Shown here: positions 14,091-44,497 of the stretch, one piece after another
Layout of the letters: each line of letters starts with the position of its first letter
How positions within the stretch are numbered: position 1 is the first letter of the stretch
NCBI GenBank assembly: GCA_947493495.1
Contig: CANLRN010000001.1
Location: 1-64,000, forward strand
Direction: 5' to 3'
Origin: an uncultured Aquimarina sp.
GTDB lineage: Bacteria > Bacteroidota > Bacteroidia > Flavobacteriales > Flavobacteriaceae
DNA: 64,000 nt
Notes under the pieces: model-generated
What the model was told of the DNA's origin: nothing
Database searches by the model: none
What the model saw: only the letters and a program-made list of their open reading frames with translations
Program-made: the position numbers and the translations under genes

Positions 14091-16022
14091 TTAAACTAAA
14101 ACTTTTTGCTTTCTTACTTGAGCTATTTGGTTTTTCTTATCTATACTTTCAAATTCTGAATTTTTAGAAATATATTCTGGTACAATTTCTTTTAATTTAC
14201 CTACAATTAAATCGTCTTGGTTAAATAAATTCATTATACACAGATCATCGATTTTATCCATGATTAGTGAACAATCATCATTATCATCGTGTTTACTAAT
14301 CATTATCTTTTTATGATAAGTAGGCAATGTATTTTCTGTATCAGCTAATAGTTCTTCGTATAGTTTCTCTCCTGGTCTTAATCCCGTTATTTTTATATCG
14401 ATGTCATTAGGATAGTTTAATCCTGATAGTCTAATCATTTTCTTAGCGAGATCAAATATTTTTACAGATTCTCCCATATCAAAAATAAATATCTCTCCTC
14501 CATTACCCATAGTTCCTGCTTCTATTACTAACTGAGAAGCTTCTGGGATTGTCATAAAGAATCGAGTTACATCTTTGTGCGTTACAGTTAATGGTCCGCC
14601 TTTTTCTATTTGTTTTTTAAATAAAGGAATCACAGATCCATTAGAACCAAGTACATTACCAAATCGCGTAGTAATAAATTTAGTTTTACTTTTATTGTGT
14701 AAACACTTAATATACATTTCTGCAACTCTTTTTGTTGCTCCCATTACATTCGTAGGATTTACAGCTTTGTCTGTAGAAACAAAAACAAATTTATCCACAT
14801 TATATTTAACAGACATATCTGCTAATTTTCTTGTTCCGAGCACATTGATTTTAATAGCTTCACAAGGATTATTTTCCATTAGTGGCACATGCTTGTATGC
14901 AGCTGCGTGAAAAACCATGTTTGGCTTAAATCTGTCGAATATAATTTCAATTCTTTGGTGATCTCTTATATCAGCTACAATTGGAGTGAAGTTTTCAACT
15001 CCTTTACTAATCAATTCTTGCTGAAGATCATATAATGCTGACTCAGCTTGATCTACTAATACTAGGTGTTTATATTTATAGAAAGAAGCTTGTCTTACAA
15101 TTTCACTACCAATAGAACCTGCAGCACCAGTAATCATGATTACTTTTTCATGAAGTTGTTTTTTGATTTTTAGATTTTCTAGTGCAATAGGTGCTCGATC
15201 TAATAAATCTTCAATCTCTATTGGTTTGATCTGAGAAACATTTAATTTACCATCAATCCAATCATTAACAGCAGGTATTATTTTTACTTTTACATTTAAT
15301 TTTAGTAATCCATCAGATATCTCAGATAATCTTTTCTTTTCTATATGCGGAATGGATACAATGATTTCATTAATATTATTTTTTTTGATAAAATCACGAT
15401 CTACAATTTTAGAGTTAACTATTTTTATCCCATTAATAGTTTTTCCTATTTTCTGTGTATTATCATCCATAAATCCAACTACCGTAACTGATTTATTAGA
15501 ATCATTAGTGATAGCTGCTAATGTAATTAGGCCTGAGTCTCCTGCACCATATATCAAGACTCTGGATGAATCTCCTAATTTTGACTTTATATAGTAATAA
15601 CAATATTTAAATATAAGTCGACTTGTGGTTAATGTTATAATGTTTAATAAATAATGTATACATATAATTGATACAGGGATATTAAGCAATTCTGGAATTA
15701 ATGATAATCTACTGGATACCATAAGAGCACCGCTTAAACAAATTAATACAGTTACTGCCAGAAACAAGTTATATGCATCTCTCATTCCTGTGTGTCTTAC
15801 AACTCCTTTATAAGATCCAATAAGCATAAAACTAATGATAGATATAACCACCATAACTGGCAGTTGATATTCTAGATTAGTAATATTAAAATCTAGGGTT
15901 ATCCCAAACCGTATTACATATGCTAAAAAGAAATTAAAAATAGTAATAGCTACATCAATTGTCAATACCAACCATTTTGATGCGTGCTTATGCGAATTAT
16001 TAATTATATAATCCTTTATCAT
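14091..16022 (-). CDS. Membrane-bound nucleotide-sugar 4,6-dehydratase (CapD/PglF/FlaA1 family)
   Basis: This 643-residue enzyme converts UDP-GlcNAc to the 4-keto-6-deoxy sugar, the first step to bacillosamine-type or QuiNAc sugars. Four N-terminal membrane segments (to about 140) precede an NAD-like fold (GAGDSG, 159-164) and the catalytic SDR domain (TGAAGSIG, 298-305). The family-specific catalytic block STDKA (416-420) and MGATKR (427-432) has Met-Lys in place of the usual Tyr-x-x-x-Lys, as in PglF-type dehydratases. It overlaps the upstream aminotransferase gene by four bases (ATGA), so the two are coupled. Together they should make a 4-amino sugar nucleotide. Confidence 0.9.
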   Translation of the reverse strand: MIKDYIINNSHKHASKWLVLTIDVAITIFNFFLAYVIRFGITLDFNITNLEYQLPVMVVISIISFMLIGSYKGVVRHTGMRDAYNLFLAVTVLICLSGALMVSSRLSLIPELLNIPVSIICIHYLLNIITLTTSRLIFKYCYYYIKSKLGDSSRVLIYGAGDSGLITLAAITNDSNKSVTVVGFMDDNTQKIGKTINGIKIVNSKIVDRDFIKKNNINEIIVSIPHIEKKRLSEISDGLLKLNVKVKIIPAVNDWIDGKLNVSQIKPIEIEDLLDRAPIALENLKIKKQLHEKVIMITGAAGSIGSEIVRQASFYKYKHLVLVDQAESALYDLQQELISKGVENFTPIVADIRDHQRIEIIFDRFKPNMVFHAAAYKHVPLMENNPCEAIKINVLGTRKLADMSVKYNVDKFVFVSTDKAVNPTNVMGATKRVAEMYIKCLHNKSKTKFITTRFGNVLGSNGSVIPLFKKQIEKGGPLTVTHKDVTRFFMTIPEASQLVIEAGTMGNGGEIFIFDMGESVKIFDLAKKMIRLSGLNYPNDIDIKITGLRPGEKLYEELLADTENTLPTYHKKIMISKHDDNDDCSLIMDKIDDLCIMNLFNQDDLIVGKLKEIVPEYISKNSEFESIDKKNQIAQVRKQKVLV

Positions 16023-17161
16023 CCCAATATATTTTTAATTATAGTTACTATTCTAAGTAAATCATCTTCTTCAAGATTAGAACCGCTTGGTAAGCAAAGT
16101 CCTCCGTCAAATAAATCACCAGATATACCATTGATGTATGCTTCACACTCAGCAAAAACTGGCTGCAAATGCATGGGTTTCCACAATGGTCTAGATTCTA
16201 TATTCTCATTAGCTAGCGCTAGCCTAATCTCTTCTCTTAATTGATATGATCGAGTTTTGATACAGCTAAGCCATCTGTTCGAATAATAACCGTTTGGTTC
16301 TTCTTGGAATTCTAGTTCTGGGTGATCCCCAAGTTGTTGTTTATAAAAGTTGAAATTAGTGCGTCTATATGTTATGTGCTTGTCTAATACTTCCATCTGG
16401 CCTCTACCAATCCCGGCAATTACATTGCTCATCCTATAATTATTACCAATCTCAGTATGCTCATAATGAGGAGCATTATCTCTTGCTTGTGTTGCAAGAA
16501 AAATTGCTTTTTCTTTATCTTTCTTTGATTTTGTAATTAAAGCGCCTCCACCAGAAGTGGTTATAATCTTATTCCCATTGAATGATAATATTGCTAGATC
16601 ACCAAAAGTTCCACACTTAATATTATGATAAGAACTTCCTAGTGATTCTGCGCTGTCTTCTAATACGGGGATTTCATATGCTCTTGCTATTTTGTGTATT
16701 GCATCAACATTATACGGCATCCCATACAGATGAACAGTAATAATAGCTTTAGGTTTCTTCCCTTTGGCTATTCTATCTTTTATAGCAATTTCTAATTGTT
16801 CTGGGCAAATATTCCAAGTCTGTGATTCACTATCAATAAATATTGGTTTTGCTCCCAAGTATACAATCGGATTGGCTGAAGCTGCAAAAGTCATACTCTG
16901 ACATAATACTTCATCATCTCTTTCTACACCTAATAATTGTAGCCCTAAATGCAATGCAGCTGTTCCAGAACTAAGCGCCGCAACATAAATATCATTAGAA
17001 AGATAATTCTTGATATCTTGTTCGAATCCATCAACATTAGGACCCAATGGAGCTATCCAATTTGTATTGAACGCTTCTTGTACGTAGGTTAATTCTTTAC
17101 CGCCCATATGCGGAGAAGAAAGCCATATTTTTTTAGATTTAATCACATTCATTTTTCCCAT
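16019..17161 (-). CDS. DegT/DnrJ/EryC1/StrS-family sugar aminotransferase (PglE-like)
   Basis: This 380-residue PLP enzyme transfers an amino group to a keto-sugar nucleotide. The Schiff-base Lys is K198 in SFNGNKIITTSGGG. LEDSAESLGS carries the PLP-contacting Asp, and the N-terminal WLSSPHMGGKE opening is typical of PglE-like members. Coupling to the PglF-like dehydratase indicates production of UDP-4-amino-4,6-dideoxy-GlcNAc. The PglD-like acyltransferase that would complete the pathway is about 7 kb away in another operon. It is the first gene of the minus-strand operon 17161 to 10796, with a strong inverted repeat 22 bp upstream of its ATG. Confidence 0.92.
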   Translation of the reverse strand: MGKMNVIKSKKIWLSSPHMGGKELTYVQEAFNTNWIAPLGPNVDGFEQDIKNYLSNDIYVAALSSGTAALHLGLQLLGVERDDEVLCQSMTFAASANPIVYLGAKPIFIDSESQTWNICPEQLEIAIKDRIAKGKKPKAIITVHLYGMPYNVDAIHKIARAYEIPVLEDSAESLGSSYHNIKCGTFGDLAILSFNGNKIITTSGGGALITKSKKDKEKAIFLATQARDNAPHYEHTEIGNNYRMSNVIAGIGRGQMEVLDKHITYRRTNFNFYKQQLGDHPELEFQEEPNGYYSNRWLSCIKTRSYQLREEIRLALANENIESRPLWKPMHLQPVFAECEAYINGISGDLFDGGLCLPSGSNLEEDDLLRIVTIIKNILG

Positions 17162-18073: not shown

Positions 18074-19525
18074 ATGATATTTAATTCTTTAAATTTCTTT
18101 GTATTCTTACCTGTTGTTTTTTTGGGGTATTGGCTTTTATTTAAAAATAAAAGAAAATCGCAGAATATATTTATCCTTATAGCTAGCTATTTTTTTTATG
18201 GCATATGGGATTGGCGATTTTTATTTTTGATAATGGCTAGTACTATAGTAGATTTTATTGTTGGACAGCGTATTTATGATAGTGATCAGCAGAAACATAA
18301 GAAGAAATGGTTATGGATCAGTATACTGTTTAATATTAGTTTACTAGGTTTTTTTAAGTATTATAACTTTTTTATTGACTCTTGGGTAGATTTTACCAGT
18401 ATTCTAGGGTATCAAATAGGCAGCTCTTGGACATTACAAATTATTCTACCTGTTGGAATCTCTTTTTATACATTCCAAACGATGTCGTATTCACTAGACA
18501 TATATTATAAACGATTAGTTCCCACTAAAGATTTTATTGCTTTTTCTGCTTTTGTCAGTTTTTTTCCTCAATTAGTGGCTGGACCGATTGAACGAGCTTC
18601 TAATTTATTATCACAGATAACGAATACAAGAAAATTTGACTATACGCAATGTACAGATGGTATGAAACTTATCGTATGGGGATTGTTTAAAAAAGTAGTA
18701 ATTGCAGATGCTATAGCACCTATAGTTGATGATGTTTTTGCAAATTATATGGATTACCCAGCTTCTACTCTACTTCTTGGTATATGTTTATTTAGTTTTC
18801 AGGTATATAGCGATTTTAGTGGCTATTCTGATATCGCAATAGGAACAGCAAAGCTTTTTGGAATAGAATTGATGTCTAATTTTAAGTTTCCAAATTTCTC
18901 TCGGAATGTTGCAGAATATTGGCAACGCTGGCACGTGTCACTTTCTACTTGGTTTAGACATTACGTATATATTCCACTTGGAGGTAGTAGAGTAAGTACT
19001 ATGAAATCTATACGGAATATTAGTATAATTTTTTTGGTTAGTGGATTTTGGCATGGGGCTAACTGGACCTTTATTGTGTGGGGTGCCATACACGCTTTAT
19101 TCTATATTCCTGTATTTTTGATGGGTAGAAATCGTATATACATGAATACTGTAGTTGCTCAGAATTCTTGGTTGCCTTCTATAAAAGAAGTACTGCAAAT
19201 AATGCTAACCTTTTCGTTAGTTACTTTCTCCAGAATATTTTTTAGATCTGAATCAATTACTGACGCTTTTAATTTTATAAAACAGTTGTGTACTAATTTT
19301 AGGTTTGAGATGTATGAACATCCTCTAGGATATCGTATGATTGATTATTTCATTTTACTTGGGCTATTCACTATTTATGAGTTTATCATTAGAAAAGATG
19401 AGCGCTCACCCTTTAAATTTAAATCAAAATATATACGTTTCTTAATGTATACAATAGTGATACTGGCCATGTTATTATTTTATGATGACCGAATTGACAG
19501 ATCTTTTATCTATTTTCAATTTTAA
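18074..19525 (+). CDS. MBOAT-family O-acyltransferase (AlgI/DltB-like), paralogue 1
   Basis: This 483-residue polytopic membrane enzyme is predicted to move an acyl group across the inner membrane onto a polysaccharide. MBOAT marks are visible: the EYWQRWHVSLSTWFRHYVYIP block (about 281-301), the invariant His in GFWHGANW (H327) and the family-typical ending FIYFQF. The SGNH protein starts three bases after its stop, forming a pair like AlgI-AlgJ or DltB-DltD. The pair converges on the operon carrying an adenylation protein and carrier protein, which makes a Dlt-like donor system worth considering. Acetyl donors are equally possible from sequence. Confidence 0.92.
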   Translation: MIFNSLNFFVFLPVVFLGYWLLFKNKRKSQNIFILIASYFFYGIWDWRFLFLIMASTIVDFIVGQRIYDSDQQKHKKKWLWISILFNISLLGFFKYYNFFIDSWVDFTSILGYQIGSSWTLQIILPVGISFYTFQTMSYSLDIYYKRLVPTKDFIAFSAFVSFFPQLVAGPIERASNLLSQITNTRKFDYTQCTDGMKLIVWGLFKKVVIADAIAPIVDDVFANYMDYPASTLLLGICLFSFQVYSDFSGYSDIAIGTAKLFGIELMSNFKFPNFSRNVAEYWQRWHVSLSTWFRHYVYIPLGGSRVSTMKSIRNISIIFLVSGFWHGANWTFIVWGAIHALFYIPVFLMGRNRIYMNTVVAQNSWLPSIKEVLQIMLTFSLVTFSRIFFRSESITDAFNFIKQLCTNFRFEMYEHPLGYRMIDYFILLGLFTIYEFIIRKDERSPFKFKSKYIRFLMYTIVILAMLLFYDDRIDRSFIYFQF

Positions 19526-19528
19526 GGT

Positions 19529-20506
19529 ATGATGAAACAAGGTATAAAAAAAATAATCGTAAAGTCTGCACTATATTTTTTCATACTCCTAATAGTATTA
19601 GAATTAGTAGTCCGAGTATTACACTTGGCAAAAGATACTCCAAGCAGATTCCTTGATGAGCACAATGTCGAAAAATGGATTCCTAATCAACAAGGATATT
19701 CTGTTACTGGAAATCGTAGACAAAATTTTTCTGAGTATCGCATCAATACTTTTGGGTTTAATTCATACAGAGAATTTACACCAACAAAAGAAAAAATTGA
19801 AGTTGCTCTCGTAGGGGATTCCTTTATACAGGGGTTTCATCAGGATTACTACAATTCTATTGGCAAAAAAATTGAGCATATGATTCCATCTATTGAGGTA
19901 TATGAATATGGATATGCAGGCTATGATTTTGCAGATCAGTTACATCTAATACACGCTTATAAAGAAGATTTTGACCTTATCGATCATGTAGTATTAGGTA
20001 TCAAATTTTCTAATGACCTTACTCGAGGAGATTATAAGGTAATGACCGAAAGACTGGCATTAGAATCACCTATTAATAAACTTCTCAGAAAAAGTAAATT
20101 ATTGGTCTATTGCAAAAGTATTGGGATTTTGGATTCTCCTCAATTATTAGTTCACCAAATCCTAAATATTGCGAAACCTTCAAAAGTATCAAAATCATTA
20201 AATGAAGAAGAGATTCGGAAAGAAAAAGAAAAAAAGATACAAAAGTATATTGAAAATTTTGAAAGTTTAATTGGACAGTATGGGTATGATATGAATCGAA
20301 ATATATTGTTGCTTGATGCAAAAGCCACAGATCCTGTTTTCATGAATTACCTAAAAAAGAATAACTATAAATATATAGACTATGCTACATATTTCTCTAC
20401 TTCTAAAAAACCTACAACATTACTATATGATAGACATTGGAATGATCACGGGAGAACATTAATTGCTATAGCAATTTCTGAGTATCTTGAGGTACACAAA
20501 AATTAG
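19529..20506 (+). CDS. SGNH-hydrolase-like partner of MBOAT paralogue 1 (AlgJ/AlgX/DltD-like)
   Basis: This 325-residue protein has one N-terminal membrane anchor (about 9-31) and an extracytoplasmic SGNH fold. The nucleophile motif is GDSF (96-99, Ser98), and the C-terminal Asp/His block is DRHWND-H (301-307). Such partners hand the acyl group from the MBOAT to the polysaccharide. The gene begins three bases after the MBOAT stop. Its TAG (20504-20506) overlaps the stop of the convergent gene 20503-21663, so no room is left for a terminator between the operons. Confidence 0.82.
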   Translation: MMKQGIKKIIVKSALYFFILLIVLELVVRVLHLAKDTPSRFLDEHNVEKWIPNQQGYSVTGNRRQNFSEYRINTFGFNSYREFTPTKEKIEVALVGDSFIQGFHQDYYNSIGKKIEHMIPSIEVYEYGYAGYDFADQLHLIHAYKEDFDLIDHVVLGIKFSNDLTRGDYKVMTERLALESPINKLLRKSKLLVYCKSIGILDSPQLLVHQILNIAKPSKVSKSLNEEEIRKEKEKKIQKYIENFESLIGQYGYDMNRNILLLDAKATDPVFMNYLKKNNYKYIDYATYFSTSKKPTTLLYDRHWNDHGRTLIAIAISEYLEVHKN

Positions 20507-21663
20507 ATAGTAACTGTTATTTTTTGCATTTTAGATTTGCCTATAATCCAATACGATTTTGATTTACCATCAGAGATTTGATGTACTGTAACATCTGTAG
20601 CCTTCTCTATACCGACATATATAAAATCAAACACAAGCCTTCTTAAAAAAGAATTCTCTTTTGAATTATAATCTACAATTGGTAATTTTTTTTCTGTTTC
20701 TTGTACATCGGTTATGTCATATACTTGTGGAGTTAACCTCTGCTCTACAGTCTTTTTCTGCTTTGCTTTAAAGTTTTTATAGCGTACATAAGCTATCTTA
20801 TATATGAACTCTTTTATCTGAACTTTTATGTATTCTATATTTCCTATAATCCATCCGCGTAGGTTTTTTTTAGGATATAAAATTTGATGTTCAAAATTAT
20901 AAATATGATTACACCATTCTCTCTTATAGGTAAGATCTCCCATCCCCATTTCGTATGATAAATATTTGTTTTCTATTAACCAGTCTAATTTTTTATAAAT
21001 CTCTACACTCCCCAAACTAAACTTCGCGTAATCTATATCATATGATGAGATGGCACTAAAGAGTCTTCTATTAAAATGGTGGTTCAATGAAACAATAATT
21101 GGTTTATCTTTTTCTAATGCAACAAATAATGAAGCTCTTTTTTCATTAATCAATGAAAAATACATTTTCTTGTAATGTTCCCAATTAAGCAATGTCTGGC
21201 TAGTATCATTACGCTCATCAAACCTTCTGATCAACATTTTTTTAAGGCAATCCATAAAAAAATCATATTCTTCTTGATCAATATGGCCTAGATACGTTTT
21301 GTAGGATACCTCAAAACAAGATTCGAGTCTCTTAACTCTTCTTCTTATTGTTTTTGCGTTACTTCTAAAACGTTTTTTTATATATGCATCTACACTATCA
21401 AAACCTTCTAGAAAAATAGCATATCCTTTAAAAAACTGAGGAATTCGTTTTATCGTAAATGTATCTTTTTCTATCACAGGCAGAAAGTAGTCTGGAATAA
21501 AAAAAATAGAATATACTTTATTGGTTATATTGACAGCTTTTGGGTTATATTCTGGATTGATAAATCCTTCTTTATGATTTGCAGACTTTACCTTTGAAAA
21601 TAGTACTGGAATAGAGTTTTTTTCATATAGTTCAAAAAAGTAATCAATAAATATTTTTTTCAC
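20503..21663 (-). CDS. FemAB/BioF2-like GNAT-fold N-acyltransferase A
   Basis: This 386-residue soluble protein looks like the BioF2-like/FemAB branch of the GNAT fold. A block IKKRFRSNAKTIRRRVKRLE (about 97-120) is typical of these transferases, and a later segment has FSAISSYDIDYAKFSLGSVEIYKKLDWLI, as in enzymes that place an acyl or aminoacyl group on an amino acceptor. The last 90 residues are less conserved. It is the last gene of the minus-strand operon that includes the adenylation and carrier proteins. Use of aminoacyl-carrier rather than aminoacyl-tRNA as donor is my inference. Confidence 0.6.
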   Translation of the reverse strand: MKKIFIDYFFELYEKNSIPVLFSKVKSANHKEGFINPEYNPKAVNITNKVYSIFFIPDYFLPVIEKDTFTIKRIPQFFKGYAIFLEGFDSVDAYIKKRFRSNAKTIRRRVKRLESCFEVSYKTYLGHIDQEEYDFFMDCLKKMLIRRFDERNDTSQTLLNWEHYKKMYFSLINEKRASLFVALEKDKPIIVSLNHHFNRRLFSAISSYDIDYAKFSLGSVEIYKKLDWLIENKYLSYEMGMGDLTYKREWCNHIYNFEHQILYPKKNLRGWIIGNIEYIKVQIKEFIYKIAYVRYKNFKAKQKKTVEQRLTPQVYDITDVQETEKKLPIVDYNSKENSFLRRLVFDFIYVGIEKATDVTVHQISDGKSKSYWIIGKSKMQKITVTI

Positions 21664-21722
21664 GTATTCAGATTTTTAGTAATCACTTAGGGCTTCTTGG
21701 TTGACACATTATCAATTACATT

Positions 21723-22814
21723 TTATGCATGATTAATTCTATAAAATGGAAAAAAATAATTTTTTAATGTTTCTTTATCCATATCTGCATATGCAATATT
21801 AGACACAAGGCATAATTCATCGTATTGTTTCTTATTAACTATTTTTCTTCCTGTATAAAAAATCACATCATCATCTTTGGGAAATAATGATTTCTTATTC
21901 TTGTACAAACCATCACCATCTTTCATCCCTCCTCCAAGAACATAGTACTTTTTGCCTTGACTAATTGCCCATTCTATAATTTTCACTCTCAGAAAATCAT
22001 TTGGCCTATAACTAAAATATTCGGCATTAGTTCCTCCTAAAAACGCAAATAATGTTTCTCTATAGTTTATAATTAGCTCTATAGAAATAGGTGTTTCTTG
22101 ATGGTATGCTACTGCAATCGAAAAATTATCTATGTTAGAGAGTATTAAGTTTTCGAAATATGTATATGAAAAAAAGTAAATACTATCCGCATTATTGCGA
22201 GTCATAGTATTGACATAAATATTATTAAATATTTCAATAATTCCTTTTGTAATTTCTTTTTGGTGAAAGACCTTAAAACTCAAATTATGATTCATCGCTT
22301 TTCTAAAATTATTTCTAACCTTAGAGACAAATCCATTCCACTGGTCTTCAAATACATTCATCAAATTACCTCTTACATTTGATAAACTCTCAATCACTAT
22401 CCCAGAATAGTTTCTATGGTTATCATTAAGACTAAAACGAATGAACTCGGTGATAACATTATTTTTCTGATACCATATATCAGTATTTTTCCAAAATTGA
22501 GTAATGTCATCAATCGTTACATCATCATTAAACAATGGACCATTGTATCCATATGGACTGATTACATCATAATATGGATATTTTATATTTTTTATGGTGA
22601 TTTCTCTATATATAAATGGCATCATGATAATGGGAGTATCATTTTTTACAAATAGAAAATATTTTAAATGATCCGATTCTTTTTCGAAATGAGATAGATG
22701 TTCCATAGAATAATATACATTATTATCCCATTTTGTTTGAAGAAGGTCTTTGTACTCAATATAATCAGATTCTTGATCTAGATTTTTTACATATATTTTA
22801 TAGTTTTCTTTCAA
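21723..22814 (-). CDS. FemAB-like GNAT-fold N-acyltransferase B
   Basis: This 363-residue protein has the layout of FemAB-related acyltransferases. The N-terminal half includes YPYYDVISPYGYNGPLF (about 78-96), which is strongly typical of this family in polysaccharide loci. The second half has a RNNFRKAMNHN block (about 165-176) and the closing FAFLGGTNAEYFSYRPNDFL and YVLGGGMKDGDGLYKNKK motifs, which mark the GNAT core. It is unlike its neighbour in detail, so the two probably act on different acceptors or donors. It lies 59 bp from gene A and 52 bp from the flavoprotein gene, in the same direction. Confidence 0.7.
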   Translation of the reverse strand: MKENYKIYVKNLDQESDYIEYKDLLQTKWDNNVYYSMEHLSHFEKESDHLKYFLFVKNDTPIIMMPFIYREITIKNIKYPYYDVISPYGYNGPLFNDDVTIDDITQFWKNTDIWYQKNNVITEFIRFSLNDNHRNYSGIVIESLSNVRGNLMNVFEDQWNGFVSKVRNNFRKAMNHNLSFKVFHQKEITKGIIEIFNNIYVNTMTRNNADSIYFFSYTYFENLILSNIDNFSIAVAYHQETPISIELIINYRETLFAFLGGTNAEYFSYRPNDFLRVKIIEWAISQGKKYYVLGGGMKDGDGLYKNKKSLFPKDDDVIFYTGRKIVNKKQYDELCLVSNIAYADMDKETLKNYFFPFYRINHA

Positions 22815-22866
22815 TATAATTACTATTAGGTTTGATATTTAGGCTTATTAGGGTATATTTCCATTT

Positions 22867-24405
22867 TTAGTCAAAAAAATAGTCGTTTAGTTTTTTTGAT
22901 AGTAATTTTGATAACCAGATAATTCTACCACAGTGCTCTACATGCCATACAGCTTTACCTTCGAATATATTACCCGCTAATAAAGGTCCTATTACATGTA
23001 AATTTTCAGAAGTCTCAAAAGAGTCGTTTACATCAAAACCAATATGAGATTCATTAGGTATACATAATTTTTTATCCACCATCTTTTTTAATAATTCTGG
23101 TATATTATCTTTTGTTAACTTAGTACTTCCTATACAGTTAAAAACAATTTGTATAGGATCATCAAGAGATTTATTACTCTCCGTTTTTGTATCTAAATAT
23201 TCTAATTGATATCCATTATCATTTTTATAAATATTAGAAAACCTGCCTGCGATATGCTTAAATCTACCACTTTCTTTGAGATCTTCAATAATTTTAGAAT
23301 AATGATATCCTGCGCACCGTTGCCTTCTTCCTATTTCATTACCATGTATACACGCAAACTTTTTAAGCTCTTCTGTATTTAATTTATTTAATAATACACC
23401 AAATCCATTAGAGATTATATCTACTGTAGATGCTGCTCCTAGTTTTATCTCATCAGCGCGATCTAAGTCTTTGTAGGCAGCACTAGCAATGCGATCTGCT
23501 GTTAGACGATCATGATCCTTTAATGAAAGTAAATATGTAGGAGAAAAGCTTTTTTTACGCTCTTCATCTATTACAGAATCAGGAGATAAGCCTTGAGTGG
23601 ATAAAAGTGTGAATTGATCTATATGAGTTTGTATTTCTTTTAAATCGTTTAGTTTGTATAACATCTCTAATCCACTGGCATTTGCACCTATGATAAGTAC
23701 ATTACATTTTTGAGCAGGTTTTTTGGTTATAAATTTTTCTACTTTTTGCAATACATGTTTTAAATCTGGTTTGTATGGATTGTTAACAAACAATAGCTCA
23801 TTATTTTCTATCAAACTTTCTTGTTTCCATAAATAGTTAGCAGGTAATGATCCAACAGAAAGTACTACTTTTTCAGAGACTAATGTTTTTTTTGAATGTA
23901 ATAGCAATTCGTAACTATCATTTTTATGCTGTATATCTAAAACTTCTGCATTGATATAATCAACGTTAACATAGCCTAACTGTTCTGATTCTTGTATTTT
24001 ATTTTTTACTTTCTGATTGATATAACTGCCAAAAAAGCGTCTAGGAATAAAAAGGTCTTTCCAATCGTTATTTTTTATTTTTTCTGAGTGCTTAGATGCC
24101 CATTCTGACGATAAGGTGCCTCCTTCTTTTAAGAATTCTTCTAATAACCAATCTTTATTCTGATTTAGCCATTCTATAAATATCTCTAACTCGGGCTGCG
24201 GTAAGAAATTTTTTAATGATGTAATTAAAAGAACACAAAAACCTGATCGCTTTCCGTAAGCAATACCCGTGTAGAACTCTGAATACCTATCAATAATCGT
24301 TATCGATATCTTTTTTTTGGTTTTATTAGTTTTTAGTTGATCCAAAAAATGCAATATCGTAAATGACGACGAAATCCCTGATCCTATAAATGTAATATGC
24401 GACAT
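22867..24405 (-). CDS. FAD/NAD(P)-binding oxidoreductase in the adenylation-carrier operon
   Basis: This protein of about 512 residues has an N-terminal Rossmann dinucleotide motif (FIGSGISSSF) and a TGIAYG segment near 50-56, as in the FAD-NAD(P)-binding family related to N-hydroxylating monooxygenases. A second nucleotide-binding motif, LIIGANASGLEML, is near 235. The C-terminal VIGPLLAGNIFEGKAVWHVE is a conserved closing element. The substrate is unknown; oxidation of a carrier-bound or free amino acid is suggested only by context. I use the ATG at 24405; an in-frame GTG at 24429 would extend it by eight residues. It lies between the PglD-like and FemAB-like genes. Confidence 0.65.
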   Translation of the reverse strand: MSHITFIGSGISSSFTILHFLDQLKTNKTKKKISITIIDRYSEFYTGIAYGKRSGFCVLLITSLKNFLPQPELEIFIEWLNQNKDWLLEEFLKEGGTLSSEWASKHSEKIKNNDWKDLFIPRRFFGSYINQKVKNKIQESEQLGYVNVDYINAEVLDIQHKNDSYELLLHSKKTLVSEKVVLSVGSLPANYLWKQESLIENNELLFVNNPYKPDLKHVLQKVEKFITKKPAQKCNVLIIGANASGLEMLYKLNDLKEIQTHIDQFTLLSTQGLSPDSVIDEERKKSFSPTYLLSLKDHDRLTADRIASAAYKDLDRADEIKLGAASTVDIISNGFGVLLNKLNTEELKKFACIHGNEIGRRQRCAGYHYSKIIEDLKESGRFKHIAGRFSNIYKNDNGYQLEYLDTKTESNKSLDDPIQIVFNCIGSTKLTKDNIPELLKKMVDKKLCIPNESHIGFDVNDSFETSENLHVIGPLLAGNIFEGKAVWHVEHCGRIIWLSKLLSKKLNDYFFD

Positions 24406-24433
24406 TTTATTTTTGTTTTGAGCAAGCACAAGA

Positions 24434-25078
24434 TTAAGGTTGTTTCGTTTTTATCACTCTTCCTGGGTTACCGACCATTGTAACATAATCAGGGACATCT
24501 TTTATAATCACTGTCCCCGCTCCTAATAAAGTTTCTCTACCAATTTCTTTAACTCCTGTCATTACAGTAACTCCCATACCTATGTATGCTTTTTCTTTTA
24601 CGTGTATCAATGCTCCAATATTCACCCCTGATGACATAAAAACTCCATCTTCTAGGGTTACATGGTGTGCTATCGTACTATCCATATTTATCATAATATA
24701 ATTACCTATTACTGTATGTGGCATTACTATATTACCTGCTAACATATATACTGCCTCTCCTATAGATACATCAGGAGCAATCGATACTGTATGATGTATA
24801 AATCCTGGAATATTATATCCTTCTTTTTTTAATGTTGATAAATAGTTAACACGTACAGTATTATTCCCTATGGGGCAATATACATCTTGTATTTTTTTTT
24901 TAAACTCATGAAGAAACAAATCTTCATATTTTCCTATGACAGGTATCCCAATTACTTTTTGTTTTATTAATTCTGGATTATCATCAATAAACCCAATAAT
25001 ATTAACTCCAGCTTCTTTAAGATACGAGGCATATACTTGCCCTTGTGTTCCTGCACCTATGATTACAGCTTTATTCAT
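24434..25078 (-). CDS. PglD/NeuD-family sugar acyltransferase (left-handed beta-helix)
   Basis: This 214-residue enzyme has an N-terminal nucleotide-sugar-binding Rossmann-like part (AVIIGAGTQGQVYASYL, FIDDNP) and a C-terminal hexapeptide-repeat helix ending GNPGRVIK. The catalytic His region is IAHHV (137-141). In the bacillosamine pathway PglD acetylates the 4-amino group made by PglE. Here the PglF- and PglE-like enzymes sit in a separate operon, while the PglC-like transferase is four bases upstream. The natural acyl donor could be acetyl-CoA; whether it uses the carrier protein nearby cannot be told. Confidence 0.88.
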   Translation of the reverse strand: MNKAVIIGAGTQGQVYASYLKEAGVNIIGFIDDNPELIKQKVIGIPVIGKYEDLFLHEFKKKIQDVYCPIGNNTVRVNYLSTLKKEGYNIPGFIHHTVSIAPDVSIGEAVYMLAGNIVMPHTVIGNYIMINMDSTIAHHVTLEDGVFMSSGVNIGALIHVKEKAYIGMGVTVMTGVKEIGRETLLGAGTVIIKDVPDYVTMVGNPGRVIKTKQP

Positions 25079-25082
25079 TATG

Positions 25083-25688
25083 CTAATTATTTCCTGTAAA
25101 AGTAGGCATATTTATATTTTCACCACTATTAATATCTTCTTTAAAAAGTACTTTTTTTATAGTTAGAAAAACGATTTTCACATCAGTCATTACTGTAACA
25201 TTTTTGGTATACCAAACATCTAATTCAAATTTCTGATTCCAAGAAATCGTATTCCGCCCATTAACTTGTGCCCATCCTGTGATACCAGGTCTTACATCAT
25301 GACGTTTTTTTTGTTCTGCATTATAAAGAGGTAAATATTTTACTAACAAAGGTCTTGGTCCTATTAAACTCATATCTCCCTTAAGAACATTAAATAGTTG
25401 AGGAATTTCATCTAATGAATATTTTCTGATAAATTTTCCTATAGTAGTAATTCTTTGTTCGAATGGCAACAACTCTCCCTTCTCATCTTTTTTATCATTC
25501 ATACTTTTTAGTTTAATGATCTTAAATATCTCTTCTTTTTTACCTGGACGAGATTGAAAGAAAAATGGTTTACCATTATTAGCAAATAATAATATAATAA
25601 TTACCACCAGTAAAATAGGCGATACTAGTAAAATACCTAATAATGCTCCAAAAAAATCTATAAAACGTTTAATGAATAATTTATACAT
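25083..25688 (-). CDS. PglC-type phospho-sugar transferase, paralogue 1
   Basis: This 201-residue small polyprenyl-phosphate sugar-1-phosphate transferase starts repeat-unit assembly on the lipid carrier. One N-terminal re-entrant membrane segment (about 9-33) precedes the catalytic core. Conserved motifs are RPGKKEEIFKIIKLKSM, SLDEIPQLFNVLKGDMSLIGPRP (catalytic Asp-Glu pair) and GITGWAQVNGRN. Its length matches the PglC class with no extra domain. It is close to the product of 28777-29433 through most of its length. It is flanked by the PglD-like gene (4 bp) and the carrier protein gene (18 bp). Confidence 0.93.
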   Translation of the reverse strand: MYKLFIKRFIDFFGALLGILLVSPILLVVIIILLFANNGKPFFFQSRPGKKEEIFKIIKLKSMNDKKDEKGELLPFEQRITTIGKFIRKYSLDEIPQLFNVLKGDMSLIGPRPLLVKYLPLYNAEQKKRHDVRPGITGWAQVNGRNTISWNQKFELDVWYTKNVTVMTDVKIVFLTIKKVLFKEDINSGENINMPTFTGNN

Positions 25689-25706
25689 GGGTAATATGAA
25701 AATGTA

Positions 25707-25946
25707 TTACAGCTCTGATTCGATAGTGTTTAGTAGATCTCCTATATTATCCATATTCATTAAATCCATGAGTTTAAATTTAATATCAAATGTTTTTTCA
25801 ATTTCTGTAATAATCATCATATGGGTAATTGATTCCCATCCATCTACATCATTTGCCGTAGTCTCTTCAAGGAGTTGAAAATTTTCATGTTCTAATACAG
25901 TAACAAAAGCTTTTGTTACTTTAGATAAGATCTCTTCTTTGTTCAT
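25707..25946 (-). CDS. Acyl/aminoacyl carrier protein
   Basis: This 79-residue acidic four-helix carrier protein has the phosphopantetheine attachment Ser at 39 in DGWESITHM, a variant of the usual DSL motif. It is a stand-alone carrier placed 26 bp after an amino-acid-type adenylation gene, in the manner of DltC after DltA. It is not the fatty-acid AcpP, which has a different core (GADSLD). A phosphopantetheinyl transferase is not in the window. Confidence 0.88.
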   Translation of the reverse strand: MNKEEILSKVTKAFVTVLEHENFQLLEETTANDVDGWESITHMMIITEIEKTFDIKFKLMDLMNMDNIGDLLNTIESEL

Positions 25947-25972
25947 TTATAATTTATTTTGGTTGAAGTAGC

Positions 25973-27475
25973 TTACGCTACAATATTATTAAAATGTTTT
26001 TTTAACTCTTTTCTATTTATTTTTCCATTTATACTATGTGGAAATTCTTTTATAAACCTGACATGCATTGGGATCATATATGATGGCATCATTGTTTTCA
26101 TATGATCAAAAATTAAAGTGGTATCAAATTCATCAGACTCTATAGCGAGTCCTAATTCTGCATTACCTAAGGAATTAGTTATGTCTAATGCAACTATATT
26201 CACTTTTTTTTCTGATTTTGATTTGGCATGAAATTCGATTTCTGCTAATTCTACACGATATCCTCTAATTTTTACCTGAAAATCTGCTCTACCTACATAT
26301 AGAAAATCTCCATCGTTATCTTTGATACAGAGATCTCCTGTTTTATAATAGCGTACTTCCACTCCATCTTCTGTTCTATTAAAAAAACTTTGTTTGTTCT
26401 TTTCTGGATTTTTCCAGTAACCAGGAGTAATTTGAGGGCCTGCTAAGCATAATTCTCCTGTTTCTTCAATAGCTACTTCTTCATTATTTTCATTAACTAC
26501 TATATACGATGTGTTTTTTTGTGGAGTGCCGATTGCTATGATGCCATTATAGGCTTTTTGATGCGTATCTTTATGATATGGGTAAAAACCACTATAGACT
26601 GTAAATTCTGTTGGACCATAGTAATTAAAGATTTTACAATTAGGAAGACAATCACTCCATTCTTTTGCGATATCACTATGTAATGCTCCTCCTCCAAAAC
26701 TACAATACCTAACATCTGGTGCATGAATCTCTGAGAAATAAGGTCTTAGATAATTTATAATAGAAGGAACCATTGTTAATACCGTAAGCTTTTCTTCATT
26801 TATCAATTTAAATATATAAAAATATTTGATAGCTCCTTTGGGGATGGTATACATACAAGATCCGGATAATAATGGAAATAAGTAAGTAACCACTGAAAAA
26901 TCAAAGGTAAGTTCAAACATCTGTAGGCATCTATCTGATGCTATTAAATTAAAATCAGGCTCTGCATCAATGGCATCTACTAACCCTTGTACATTAGCAA
27001 AAGTTATAGGTACACCTTTAGGAAGTCCTGTAGTACCGGATGTAAATAAAATATAGGCTAAATCACTACTTATTGCGTTTTTTGGTTCTAAATCAATAGC
27101 TACTTCTGGAATATCTTTAGTAGCAATAATAGTATAGTTATCGTAGATAGATTGGTCAGAAGAATCAAGTATAATAGTAGTTCCTGTAAGCTTAAAAACA
27201 GTATGATTTCTTTCTACAGGGACTTCTGGATTAACAGGCACATATGCTTTTCCTTCTAGCCATAATGCAATAATACTAGCATATGTATATATATCATCAT
27301 TAGTAACTAGGCCTATTAATTTTTCTGTTTCTTTTGTCACACTAGCAATAGCACTTCGTATTTTAGAAACTTCTATAGCAAAATCATGATACGTATACAA
27401 CTTACCTTTGATACATAATACATTATGATCTGGATGCTTTTCAATTGATTGCGCTATTTTTTTTATGTATTCCAT
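25973..27475 (-). CDS. Stand-alone amino-acid adenylation protein (DltA/NRPS A-domain-like)
   Basis: This 500-residue adenylate-forming enzyme has all core motifs in order: A3 LFTSGTTGLPKG (143-154), A4 FDFS (191-194), A5 NYYGPTE (284-290), A7 YKTGDL (377-382), A8 RGYRVELAEIE and the A10 lysine in NGKINRKEL near the C-terminus. Asp192 in A4 is the residue that holds the alpha-amino group in amino-acid-activating domains, so an amino acid is the likely substrate. It should load the carrier protein encoded 26 bp downstream. The length fits DltA. The promoter region contains dispersed repeat copy 3. Confidence 0.88.
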   Translation of the reverse strand: MEYIKKIAQSIEKHPDHNVLCIKGKLYTYHDFAIEVSKIRSAIASVTKETEKLIGLVTNDDIYTYASIIALWLEGKAYVPVNPEVPVERNHTVFKLTGTTIILDSSDQSIYDNYTIIATKDIPEVAIDLEPKNAISSDLAYILFTSGTTGLPKGVPITFANVQGLVDAIDAEPDFNLIASDRCLQMFELTFDFSVVTYLFPLLSGSCMYTIPKGAIKYFYIFKLINEEKLTVLTMVPSIINYLRPYFSEIHAPDVRYCSFGGGALHSDIAKEWSDCLPNCKIFNYYGPTEFTVYSGFYPYHKDTHQKAYNGIIAIGTPQKNTSYIVVNENNEEVAIEETGELCLAGPQITPGYWKNPEKNKQSFFNRTEDGVEVRYYKTGDLCIKDNDGDFLYVGRADFQVKIRGYRVELAEIEFHAKSKSEKKVNIVALDITNSLGNAELGLAIESDEFDTTLIFDHMKTMMPSYMIPMHVRFIKEFPHSINGKINRKELKKHFNNIVA

Positions 27476-27507
27476 ATACTCTTTACGTTATCGAGTTTAG
27501 TAAACTA

Positions 27508-27675
27508 CCTCGGAGCAAGCCCACGAGACATTCAACTAAAAATAATTTTTAAGATTCCGAAGCAAGCTTCGAGGTTTTAAACCTGAGATTCCACTGAAAA
27601 AGCGGAATTAGTTCAATTATCTGATTTGAAAGCATTGCTGTGTAACTTTTCAAATCAGAGTTTCACTAATAAAAA
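27508..27675 (+). repeat. Dispersed multi-hairpin repeat, copy 3 (inside the capsule operon)
   Basis: This copy opens with CCTCGGAGCAAGCCCACGAG. It has a shorter central hairpin than copies 1 and 2: ATTCCACT pairs with AGCGGAAT around a five-base loop, where the other copies have a 25-base insert. Relative to copy 1 one stem pair has changed from C-G to T-A. The invariant terminal stem is 27621-27630/27649-27658. It fills the 190-bp gap between two same-strand genes. The end of the repeat (CACTAATAAAA) supplies the TAG stop of the gene at 27666-28757 when read on the minus strand. Confidence 0.87.
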
Positions 27676-28757
27676 TGGCCATCTCTATTAAGCATATTGA
27701 CATTTTTAAAATCAATCACAGTTTTATTATGTGCCAATCCTTTTTTAGCGACTTTATGCGTAAATATAGTTGTAAATCTACTAGTGATTGCGTCCGATAA
27801 TTTCGTGTCATCTGTGAAAATGAATTTTGCTTTTTTTGCATTAAAATTATCTATCAAAACATCAATACAACTATTATAATAGCTGTCTTCTTTTACTAAA
27901 AAATATTTAACATTAAATTCATTAAAATTAATAATATATGATAAAAAACCTATTACCTCTTGTTCTTTTATAATTTTAAGGTTGTGAATATGTATATTAT
28001 TACTTACACCTGTTTGCAATGATTTATATGGATGCTTATGTGAGATTGGTGTTTGCATATATTGACTAGCATCAATCTGCCAATTGATATATTCTTTTGT
28101 TTTATAAATCATATCATGAGCACACAAAGGCTCGATAAAACTCCAAGTAGCATCATCTATCTGATTGATATACTCATATGATAAACTTTTTACACTATTT
28201 TTAAGCTTACTAGCATTAATCCGTCGGATGATATATGCTGTGAAATTATCAATTCTGTTTAGTAAAAACTTAAAAGATTTTAAAAATTTAAATTTGCCAA
28301 TAAGCATAGATGCATCTAGGCTTAAAAATAATGTATGTCGCAATCTAGCAGCAATCACTGTAAAGGGTTGTTTTTTATAAAAAGCAGTTACATTCTCGGC
28401 ATATGATTTAATAACTATTTGTTTATCAGCTAGATTTAGTGACTCATTAAAAATATATGTTCCCAATACTGTATCCTTATATGTTTTGTGCACCCACCAA
28501 GATATCATCCAATATACTTTGTTTTTTTCTGCTGTATTCAATACATCAGGAAACATAAAAATGAATGAAATCATTTTTTTATCCTCATAGCCTATAACAC
28601 CACAATACTCCTCATCTCTAATTCTATTATTAGCAACTAACCACGAGGCTTTGCTCTTGGGTAATGGCGAAAGATCGTTTTTCCAATAGGTATTTTTATC
28701 AATAGCTTCGCGTAACATTTTTTTTGTTACGCCTATAACTTGTAAATCTTTACTCAT
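27666..28757 (-). CDS. Putative GNAT-like acyltransferase in the capsule locus
   Basis: This is a 363-residue soluble protein. The first half (EYCGVIGYEDKKMISFIF, then TVLGTYIFNESL and AENVTAFYKKQPF near 128-140) resembles a GNAT N-acetyltransferase with its acyl-CoA loop region. The second half has KIIKEQEVIGFLSYI, which may be a second GNAT-like half. I do not recognise a specific family. Its final codons (GHFY and stop) read into the dispersed repeat, so the native C-terminus may have been altered by arrival of the repeat. It follows the second PglC-like gene by 19 bp. Confidence 0.5.
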   Translation of the reverse strand: MSKDLQVIGVTKKMLREAIDKNTYWKNDLSPLPKSKASWLVANNRIRDEEYCGVIGYEDKKMISFIFMFPDVLNTAEKNKVYWMISWWVHKTYKDTVLGTYIFNESLNLADKQIVIKSYAENVTAFYKKQPFTVIAARLRHTLFLSLDASMLIGKFKFLKSFKFLLNRIDNFTAYIIRRINASKLKNSVKSLSYEYINQIDDATWSFIEPLCAHDMIYKTKEYINWQIDASQYMQTPISHKHPYKSLQTGVSNNIHIHNLKIIKEQEVIGFLSYIINFNEFNVKYFLVKEDSYYNSCIDVLIDNFNAKKAKFIFTDDTKLSDAITSRFTTIFTHKVAKKGLAHNKTVIDFKNVNMLNRDGHFY

Positions 28758-35154: not shown

Positions 35155-35198
35155 TTGGCTAACCTTGAAAACTTTTATTTTTTTTCAAGGTTAGTCAA
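35155..35198 (+). terminator. Rho-independent terminator with 17-bp stem
   Basis: Arms 35155-35171 and 35182-35198 (core CTAACCTTGAAAA/TTTTCAAGGTTAG) pair over 17 positions with one G-T, around a ten-base loop, and are followed by a T-run (35199-35206). It ends transcription of the beta-helix lipoprotein gene. Its right arm lies inside the last codons of the convergent gene 35175-36119. Confidence 0.85.
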
Positions 35199-36119
35199 TA
35201 TTTTTTGATTAATACGCTCAGAAACGAGTTTGGTAAAATGCCTAGCTCCCTGATCATTAAGATGTGATGGATCATGAAACCAATCTAATTTGTTATCAAA
35301 ATTAGTATCCTCTGCAAAATTAAATATTGATACATTTTCCTTAGTAGCTATTTTATTAATAATTGCTAAGGACTTATTATTTGGATTTATTTTTTTTAGT
35401 GTTGGAGATATCACAAAAACTAAATTCACATCATTTGATTTTGCATTATCAATAAACTCTTTTAGAGCAAAAACAAAGTTTTTATCAATTTCTTTAGCTT
35501 CATCATCAAGCTTGATTAAATTAGAGGTAGTTTGATCAGTAGTCATAGTTCCGTGAAGAGGTCTATATCCTTTATAGTCTAATTGAGGAGATAGATAATA
35601 TCGTATTATGTGAATGATTGTTGAGTTTACTAAATATGATCTAAAAAACATCTCTATATCAATGAATTTAGAATTTAATTTAAATAATGGCCTTAGTTCA
35701 TTTTTAAATTCGTTATAGTAAGGATGTAAGTCATTAAGTCTATCATATGCAATATCAGAAGAATACAAAAAATCTTCATCTATATTAAGAATGAACAAAT
35801 TGGGGGTACTACGTTTTAGAACCATTTCCTGTAATGCCAAATGATATATTAATTGTTGTCCCTCTGCACCTGCATTATAGGCAGTAGTCTTTAGTTCTTT
35901 TTCTAGAATCTCTGGGACATAATGTCTATGTGCATGTGAGCTTCCAAAAATCAATACTTCTGCTTCTGTATCATAGATCACATGATTCGCTCGGGCATAT
36001 TTACCCGTTTTCTGTAAAAAGAATACATGATTACTAATTATTCCAAAAAGGAGATCTACAATCAAAACAAGTATCACAAATTTTACCATCTTAGAAAATA
36101 TAGTAATATATCCTTTCAT
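35175..36119 (-). CDS. SGNH-hydrolase-like partner of MBOAT paralogue 2
   Basis: This 314-residue protein has an N-terminal membrane anchor (about 11-33) and an extracytoplasmic SGNH-like domain. The nucleophile block is LIFGSSHAHRHY (Ser at 60 or 61), and the closing catalytic block is DWFHDPSHLN (279-288) with the Asp and His. It follows its MBOAT by ten bases, as in AlgI-AlgJ and DltB-DltD pairs. The last residues (TNLEKK) are encoded by the right arm of the terminator shared with the convergent gene. Confidence 0.8.
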   Translation of the reverse strand: MKGYITIFSKMVKFVILVLIVDLLFGIISNHVFFLQKTGKYARANHVIYDTEAEVLIFGSSHAHRHYVPEILEKELKTTAYNAGAEGQQLIYHLALQEMVLKRSTPNLFILNIDEDFLYSSDIAYDRLNDLHPYYNEFKNELRPLFKLNSKFIDIEMFFRSYLVNSTIIHIIRYYLSPQLDYKGYRPLHGTMTTDQTTSNLIKLDDEAKEIDKNFVFALKEFIDNAKSNDVNLVFVISPTLKKINPNNKSLAIINKIATKENVSIFNFAEDTNFDNKLDWFHDPSHLNDQGARHFTKLVSERINQKILTNLEKK

Positions 36120-36129
36120 AAATAAACCT

Positions 36130-37545
36130 TTAAAATTGAAAATATATAAATTGACTATTTCCGAAAACTCCTAAATAAAGAATTAAATATATCAATGTGG
36201 CATACATAAACATACGTCCAATTTCTCTTTTTATAATGAAATTTATGACAACAGTATTTTTTAAATACTCTCTTCTAAACTCAATGACAACAAGTAAAAA
36301 AATAGCCAACACAGCGTAGATCGAAGCAGCTATATCATCACCACTACCAATATATAATTTACCAGGTTTAGTAAAAATTTTGCTAATGATGTAGAAAGCA
36401 TCAAGAACACTATTAGCTCTAAAAAAAATCCAAGCAAAACTTATAAAACAAAAAGTACTTATAATATTAAGAGTACCTTTTCTTTTTTTACCATTACAAA
36501 GTATTTCTATAATTAAATAAATCCCATTAATTGCTCCCCAAATCACAAATGTCCATTTAGCACCATGCCATAAACCACTTATTAAAAATGTAATAAATAA
36601 GTTAAAAAACCACCTGTATCTACCTACACGATTTCCTCCTAAAGGGATATACAAATAATCTCGAAACCAAGTAGATAAAGAAATATGCCATCTGTTCCAA
36701 AATTCATGAATTGAAGCAGAGAAATAAGGTCTTCTAAAATTAGTCATCAAATTGAACCCGAAGAGTTTTGCTGTTCCAATTGCTATTAGAGAATAGCCAG
36801 CAAAATCCCCATAGATCTGAAATGCAAATAAAATTGTTGCAAAAATCAAGCTTAACCCATCATGATATTCTACATTATTATAGACTGAATTTACATAGAT
36901 AGCAGCTCTATCTGCAACTACTAGTTTCAAGAAAAATCCCCAAATAATCAATTTTACTCCATAAGATATTGACTCTATTGTATACTTCCTTTTTTCTAAA
37001 AACTGGGGTAATAAATGGGTAGCTCTTTCGATAGGCCCAGCAACCAATTGCGGAAAAAAAGAAACAAAAGCTGCAAATGATATAAAATCTCTGGTTGGTT
37101 GTAATTTACCCCGATAAACATCAATCGTGTATGACATTGTTTGAAAAGTATAAAAAGAAATGCCAACTGGTAGGATAATACTCAAAGTAGTCACATTTTT
37201 TATATCATAGCCTATAGAATTAAATAAATCAACCCAAGAATCAATAAAAAAGTTGCAATACTTAAAAAACGACAATACTCCTAAATTGAAAAACACACTT
37301 ACTAGAAGCCACCTTTTTTTAAATTTATGATCGTCACAATGACTTATTTTAATCCCAACCAAATAATCTACTAAAGTACTTAAAGCAATTAATGCTATGA
37401 ATCTATAATCCCACCAACCATAAAAAATATAACTTGCTACTAACAATAGTATATTTTGGAAATGAATTTTACGTTTCTGGAAAAACCAATAAACAACAAA
37501 AATAATTGGAAGAAATAATAGAAAATCAAAAGAATTGAAATACAT
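36130..37545 (-). CDS. MBOAT-family O-acyltransferase, paralogue 2
   Basis: This 471-residue polytopic enzyme is highly similar to the two other MBOATs here. Key blocks are EFWNRWHISLSTWFRDYLYIP and the catalytic His region GLWHGAKWTF, ending QFIYFQF. It is paired with the SGNH gene downstream (10 bp). It lies at the end of the long minus-strand operon from 52894, so its target is probably the polymer built by that operon. Acetylation is the default assumption for AlgI-like members. Confidence 0.93.
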   Translation of the reverse strand: MYFNSFDFLLFLPIIFVVYWFFQKRKIHFQNILLLVASYIFYGWWDYRFIALIALSTLVDYLVGIKISHCDDHKFKKRWLLVSVFFNLGVLSFFKYCNFFIDSWVDLFNSIGYDIKNVTTLSIILPVGISFYTFQTMSYTIDVYRGKLQPTRDFISFAAFVSFFPQLVAGPIERATHLLPQFLEKRKYTIESISYGVKLIIWGFFLKLVVADRAAIYVNSVYNNVEYHDGLSLIFATILFAFQIYGDFAGYSLIAIGTAKLFGFNLMTNFRRPYFSASIHEFWNRWHISLSTWFRDYLYIPLGGNRVGRYRWFFNLFITFLISGLWHGAKWTFVIWGAINGIYLIIEILCNGKKRKGTLNIISTFCFISFAWIFFRANSVLDAFYIISKIFTKPGKLYIGSGDDIAASIYAVLAIFLLVVIEFRREYLKNTVVINFIIKREIGRMFMYATLIYLILYLGVFGNSQFIYFQF

Positions 37546-44496: not shown

Positions 44497-44497
44497 A

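Follow-up and report, generated by a model that had tools for sequence, protein, structure and literature searches.

What uses the acyl group that a stand-alone adenylation protein and its free carrier protein activate in a Gram-negative polysaccharide locus? The window analyzed here, a stretch of 64,000 nucleotides from an uncultured Aquimarina sp. (contig CANLRN010000001.1, positions 1 to 64,000), contains such a pair (A and CP) together with three pairs of MBOAT and SGNH-like genes, and an earlier sequence-only reading had proposed that these parts form a Dlt-like system placing aminoacyl esters or amides on the polymer. We found that the closest conserved partner of A and the carrier is not an MBOAT but a gene absent from that reading's list, here called GX, which adjoins A on its upstream side. 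We consider it reasonably probable that the GX-A-carrier module transfers an aminoacyl group from the carrier to an amino sugar of the polysaccharide, with an amide as the predicted product. The module spans 28757-25707 on the minus strand:

27666..28757, minus strand: GX, predicted tandem-GNAT acyltransferase and candidate aminoacyl transferase of the module, directly upstream of A
25973..27475, minus strand: A, stand-alone amino-acid adenylation enzyme (TIGR01733, PF00501) with pocket code DFVSSGYVYK by aligned positions
25707..25946, minus strand: CP, carrier protein (PF00550) with phosphopantetheine Ser39 in GWESITH, the WES form being typical of GX-linked carriers

Open reading frames were found at every coordinate named in the sequence-only reading, and frames, families and motifs confirmed its adjacent A protein (FDFS, Asp192) and free carrier (Ser39) at 25707-27475. 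A matches PF00501 and TIGR01733, the latter at 293.9 bits, just below the cut-off of 317.4. Its A4 motif FDFS carries Asp192, the amino-group aspartate, which is invariant in 31 aligned homologues, supporting its assignment to the amino-acid-adenylating kind. The carrier exceeds the PF00550 cut-off (23.7 versus 20.8 bits) with its attachment Ser39, and the two proteins look like an amino-acid activation pair. Aquimarina and other Flavobacteriaceae account for most of the closest named homologues of A, and related A proteins are domains of non-ribosomal peptide synthetases (NRPS). The window's own genome holds one GX-type A, one NRPS-like frame and one weak match, and no second A.

The link between GX and A is kept throughout the genus set of 66 genomes, 58 of them near-complete. 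A-family matches at E 1e-60 or better occur in 53/66 genomes, a few of these being NRPS modules (e.g. G054, a 4717-aa frame with 31% identity). Full-strength GX is present in 50/66, the same fifty that carry a GX-type A, and the two genes are neighbours in all fifty, with a gap of 11-193 bp. Weak extra GX-like matches (G037, G005 and G028, 20-22% identity) do not lie beside A. In a set of 47 loci stitched together for genus and family, some of them 20 kb pieces only, both GX and the carrier are no more than two genes away from A in 47/47. Because the genus retains the arrangement of the locus, chance does not explain it. In the window, the GX-A gap (27476-27665) measures 190 bp, while it is often below 30 bp in relatives, and contains two short GC-rich repeats resembling CTTGCTTCGG; this 10-mer, with at most one mismatch, occurs four times in the window against 1.0 expected, and 4/100 shuffles also reach four. 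Promoter and terminator scans of the window gave chance level only.

The predicted fold of GX comprises two GNAT domains and is nearest in shape to N-myristoyltransferase (NMT) according to Foldseek, at 8-11% identity to the NMT chains listed. This list is a second look at the Foldseek top 1000, filled with NMT entries, with 50 chains shown; FemX is not among these 50, which excludes nothing given how NMT entries fill the list. A Pfam scan of GX gave only a sub-threshold PF00583 match and one chance match, with no FemAB or NMT family match, and named homologues are annotated as hypothetical or GNAT protein. The C-terminus reads DGx[FYV]x in all 35 complete copies of the fetched loci, and tail length and DG motif are fixed in 59/59 aligned homologues. 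An argument based on the CoA loop of GNAT proteins was dropped, since position 99 is Gly in 49/59.

From the observed conservation, adjacency, families and motifs of these genes, we infer the following chemistry, including the direction of transfer. A would adenylate an amino acid, holding its alpha-amino group on Asp192, and, judging from its family, would load it onto the phosphopantetheine of carrier Ser39. GX, with its NMT-like predicted fold, would then move the aminoacyl group from the carrier to an amine. The invariant length of its tail points to the free C-terminal carboxylate of GX as a possible base, as in NMT (PMC7048800). Most simply, the acceptor would be the 4-amino group of a UDP-QuiNAc4N-type sugar, which could be provided by two enzymes encoded in the same operon, the PglF-like dehydratase and the DegT aminotransferase. 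The neighbouring genes of this operon are:

25083..25688, minus strand: sugar-1-phosphate transferase (PF02397)
24434..25078, minus strand: NeuD/PglD-type sugar N-acetyltransferase (TIGR03570, 168.9 bits, above the cut-off of 160.8)
22867..24429, minus strand: FAD/NAD(P)-binding protein (PF13454), a frequent, not constant neighbour
21723..22814, minus strand: FemAB-like GNAT (PF13480), near the module in 43/47 loci
20503..21663, minus strand: GNAT (PF13480), near the module in 36/47 loci
16019..17161, minus strand: DegT-type sugar aminotransferase (PF01041)
14091..16022, minus strand: PglF/CapD-type nucleotide-sugar dehydratase (PF02719)

Within 12 genes of A, the FAD protein was found in 33 of the 47 loci, DegT in 29, PglF in 26 and the ST1 sugar transferase in 41. 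The FAD protein, NeuD, the two PF13480 GNATs and the sugar transferases were rejected as core parts, because GX-A-carrier loci exist without each of them. In some relatives, the counterparts of the FAD protein are longer, with frames of 567 to 887 aa, and a sequence search of the PDB with the window's copy gave nothing informative. Several family loci (L206-L211, L217, L220 and similar ones) carry runs of six or seven consecutive PF13480-like GNAT genes beside an MBOAT/SGNH pair. A further, PaaK/CapK-looking gene at 29901-31211 of the window has no Pfam match above cut-off, and many relatives retain it next to the module.

A first alternative to this reading is a true Dlt-like system, in which A and the carrier would feed MBOAT1 (or MBOAT2 or MBOAT3) and the terminal FIYFQF would shuttle the acyl group to the SGNH protein, giving amino-acid esters on the polymer. 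Every part needed is indeed present in one locus. The MBOAT/SGNH pair converging on the operon at 18074-20506 was found as described, with PF03062 for the MBOAT and motifs only for the SGNH protein, and so were the two further pairs downstream:

18074..19525, plus strand: MBOAT1 (PF03062), C-terminus SFIYFQF (acyl shuttle), which we regard as separate from the GX-A-carrier module
19529..20506, plus strand: SGNH-like partner of MBOAT1 (GDSF at residue 96, DRHW at residue 301; motifs only, with no Pfam match even at E 5)
36130..37545, minus strand: MBOAT2, ending in QFIYFQF
35175..36119, minus strand: SGNH-like partner of MBOAT2 (FGSS, DPSH; motifs only)
44498..45928, minus strand: MBOAT3, ending in SFIYFQF, close to EpsG, where relatives carry an A2-CP2-MBOAT-SGNH cassette
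43549..44535, minus strand: SGNH-like partner of MBOAT3 (GDSR, DGVH; motifs only)

The shuttle speaks for this alternative as well. FIYFQF, which the sequence-only reading did not list, ends all three window MBOATs, each beside an SGNH-like gene, and F-x-Y-x-x-F ends all 126 complete MBOATs of the loci, in 124 exactly as FIYFQF. F-x-Y-x-x-F is described as an acyl-shuttle motif, carried by DltX and, in PatA-type enzymes, built into the MBOAT (PMC12148441). However, the family scores fall short. A scores 260.6 bits against the DltA model TIGR01734, below the cut-off of 559.85 that a control DltA from Limosilactobacillus panis (L047) exceeds with 603.8 bits, and MBOAT1, the MBOAT scanned, reaches 148.5 bits against the DltB model TIGR04091 (cut-off 375). 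In addition, MBOAT1 is convergent to the operon and lies 6.5 kb from A.

The binding pocket points in the same direction. Pocket codes were read off by alignment at the ten NRPS code positions. The code DFVSSGYVYK, shared by the window A and 36 relatives, agrees with the L. panis DltA (DLMSLCTVAK) at 4/10 positions, and an NRPS control agrees with this DltA at 3/10. The amino-group aspartate is kept, whereas the position of the conserved DltA pocket cysteine, which takes part in the choice between D-Ala and L-Ala (PMC9338922), is Gly261 in the window A. Other GX-linked A proteins carry DATSIGHVCK, DFVSCGSVTK, DMVSSAYIYK and further codes. DATSIGHVCK, seen in some of these relatives, is reminiscent of aspartate codes; the amino acid is not readable from the code.

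Co-occurrence between A and MBOAT1 at the level of the locus is real and speaks for the sequence-only reading, yet it may just reflect a shared locus. Among the 58 near-complete genus genomes, 45 have both genes, three A alone, four MBOAT1 alone and six neither. The two lie within 12 kb on one contig in 39 of the 46 genomes with both, 23.7 kb apart in one and on different contigs in six. Within 12 genes of A, any MBOAT was found in 39/47 loci and MBOAT1 in 37/47 (that of G013 falls just past the end of its fetched piece). Nevertheless, MBOATs usually accompany the module but are separable from it. Three genomes (G026, G020 and G052) keep MBOAT1, SGNH, DegT and PglF with no GX, A, carrier or FAD protein in the 20 kb fetched. 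Conversely, the family genome G284 carries GX-A-carrier (GX 36%, A 46% identity to the window's) and has no PF03062 match on its single contig. In G028 and G057, the sole MBOAT is a 556-aa frame of another kind. This kind is also found in the window's genome (C140:3611-4450) and is kept by several relatives even where polysaccharide MBOATs are missing.

The Dlt idea fared better in the neighbourhood of the window's genes than for the gene pair itself. A second A with 51-55% identity occurs in 22 genus genomes, and in all 19 of their loci that were fetched it belongs to an A(-A)-carrier-MBOAT-SGNH cassette close to EpsG; the same order was seen in 4/4 such family loci. Here, the DltA pocket cysteine is kept in 26/29 MBOAT-linked A rows, and the codes seen most often agree with DltA at 6 or 7 of the 10 positions. 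Two sister A proteins reached 288.8 and 282.2 bits against the DltA model, below 559.85, and a sister MBOAT 178.4 bits against the DltB model, below 375. From these sequences, the sister cassette does look like a Dlt-like system and would combine a PatA-type MBOAT with a donor of the Dlt type; it also makes the chemistry plausible in this lineage. With its DltA-like pocket, it indicates that the Dlt idea was right for the neighbourhood, though not for the window pair. In L232, L233 and L234, the cassette holds tandem A genes with different pocket codes before a single carrier. L246 (13610-17943) has a second cassette, FkbH-carrier-MBOAT-SGNH, behind A-carrier-MBOAT-SGNH, its 576-aa protein matching FkbH (TIGR01686) above cut-off, which suggests that the same export scheme may serve a further acyl group.

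The two wirings are separated in the A tree, built from 59 rows left by a similarity filter. The GX-linked clade comprises 29 rows (support 100/99) and its MBOAT-linked sister clade 21 rows (99/96). Rows whose upstream gene fell in the next fetched piece were tagged GX, including L212, whose next piece was not fetched. As exceptions, the GX-linked L252 falls inside the MBOAT-linked clade, where L007 also sits, and the MBOAT-linked L225 and L253 branch deeper. The carriers divide likewise, with W-E-S in 28/32 GX-linked and W-D-S-L in 24/27 MBOAT-linked copies; these fractions omit 19 carriers with a cut-off partner and count as GX-linked any carrier that follows A where no MBOAT is present. In wider samples, A is sparse: its family was found in 23/349 genomes of the wider family (1e-60) and, with the second A as query, in 4/395 genomes of a phylum sample (1e-90), the window's own included in both counts. 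Two genomes from a different Bacteroidota family have an unrelated GNAT of about 225 aa after the A genes, and in one of them a carrier comes next. A contig scan with the A alignment returned mostly NRPS domains, L007 (51% identity) being the only close one among the matches listed.

In a quick, midpoint-drawn MBOAT tree (89/128 redundancy-filtered rows, without AlgI or PatA sequences), 18 carrier-linked rows form one clade (support 99) with all three window MBOATs outside; DltB sits on a very long branch of unsure placement. Also outside this clade are four further carrier-linked MBOATs (L225, L253, L007 and the second copy of L246), of which two lie close to the MBOAT2 clade, which leaves some room for the Dlt-like alternative. 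The fused shuttle and the position outside the main carrier-linked clade make acetyl transfer the likelier role of the window MBOATs, and we take the pairs to be a separate O-acyl system, probably for acetyl. Altogether, the missed cut-offs, the pocket, the tight link to GX and the MBOAT-free G284 module argue against a Dlt assembly of the window's A and carrier, which we regard as unlikely. The alternative named in the sequence-only reading itself, with acetyl-transferring MBOATs and a separate N-acylation by A and the carrier, fits the window better. The pocket, the tightness of GX and the separable MBOATs lead us to aminoacyl transfer instead of Dlt. That reading is thus partly supported: its parts are real and aminoacylation of the polymer, by amide or ester, remains the best interpretation, but the pair belongs with GX and not with the MBOATs.

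Several observations weigh against GX as the carrier-fed transferase. GX could use acetyl-CoA, and the load of A and the carrier could go elsewhere. NMT itself takes a CoA donor, and its kcat was not lowered when the last two residues were removed (PMC7048800). With NMT entries filling the Foldseek list, FemABX proteins are unranked against NMT, and the proposed acceptor sugar is not constant, given the 29/47 and 26/47 loci with DegT and PglF. A-family matches without GX occur in two genus genomes (G023, 55% complete, and G040, a fragment). In L252, GX stands with an A that belongs to the MBOAT-linked clade, and L223 (G279) has A-carrier-MBOAT-SGNH plus a nearby GX-carrier without its own A, suggesting that one A may serve two carriers. 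Following these partner swaps, carriers may be shared. Finally, 45/49 near-complete genomes with MBOAT1 also have A, and co-occurrence this strong makes a functional link possible.

A second alternative, to which we likewise assign a low probability, is that A and the carrier make a modified or non-amino acyl thioester, e.g. an N-formyl or oxidised aminoacyl group formed with the FAD protein or a formyltransferase, which GX or NeuD would transfer. The FAD protein lies near A in 33/47 loci but is missing in 14. Formyltransferase-domain genes recur beside the module in L224, L250, L270 and L271 and between A and carrier in L007, and may indicate N-formyl aminoacyl groups or formylated amino sugars; the Pfam test of relatives' neighbours also took in L035, a meaningless filler stretch. 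However, no formyltransferase is among the window genes scanned, and Asp192 speaks for an amino acid. That the module makes an aminoacyl or dipeptide metabolite and is merely located in a polymer locus is very improbable: related A proteins are NRPS domains and the distant loci L222 and G284 hold it with few polysaccharide genes in the fetched stretch, but in the genus it sits inside an export/Wzz/sugar-transferase operon with ST1 within 12 genes in 41/47 loci.

Compared with known systems, the window MBOATs resemble PatAB/AlgI-type O-acetylation in their fused C-terminal hexapeptide and SGNH neighbour, an architecture that has been described in PatA and in further enzymes using acyl-CoA (PMC12148441). 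Unlike that type, the sister MBOAT clade of the relatives sits behind an A and a carrier. According to a 2025 paper on PatAB, MBOAT/SGNH pathways other than Dlt have no carrier protein, a rule to which the relatives' cassette would be an exception (PMC12148441). With Dlt (DltA, DltB, DltC, DltD and DltX; teichoic acid D-alanylation), the locus shares a stand-alone A enzyme, a free carrier, MBOAT and SGNH genes, the F-x-Y-x-x-F motif and, as predicted, the delivery of an amino acid to a surface polymer. It differs in its tandem-GNAT partner, the shuttle fused to the MBOAT, the module's occurrence without MBOAT, the pocket and the DltA and DltB scores of A and MBOAT1. A literature search by titles, outside most subscription journals, found no GX-A-carrier module or A-carrier-MBOAT cassette described in Bacteroidota.

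With its predicted fold, GX would share two GNAT domains and N-acylation with NMT and with FemABX, which moves amino acids to peptidoglycan precursors (PMC4964394). The donors differ: NMT uses acyl-CoA and FemABX aminoacyl-tRNA, whereas GX would use an aminoacyl-carrier. By analogy, the nearest working counterpart of the module is AlmEFG of Vibrio cholerae, in which an A enzyme, a carrier and a dedicated non-MBOAT transferase place glycine on lipid A (PMC3783018). At the level of description, both would use a non-MBOAT transferase to put an amino acid on a Gram-negative surface glycan or glycolipid, while the transferases differ, AlmG belonging to the LPLAT kind and GX being a predicted GNAT, as do the acceptors. 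The AlmE-like chain 4oxi, which we take to be AlmE, is among the PDB matches of A. Amino acids on surface polymers alter charge and cationic-peptide resistance, and the known carrier-protein routes are Dlt in Gram-positives and AlmEFG in Vibrio. This marine Bacteroidota lineage would add two carrier-based cassettes with sister A enzymes, one using a tandem GNAT and the other MBOAT/SGNH with a fused shuttle, and GX gains a clear candidate role. More tentatively, GX could represent a third way of surface aminoacylation, NMT-like and carrier-fed, with its own C-terminal carboxylate and pocket codes varying by locus, and with a sister A wired to a shuttle MBOAT, so that one locus would have both amide and ester routes.

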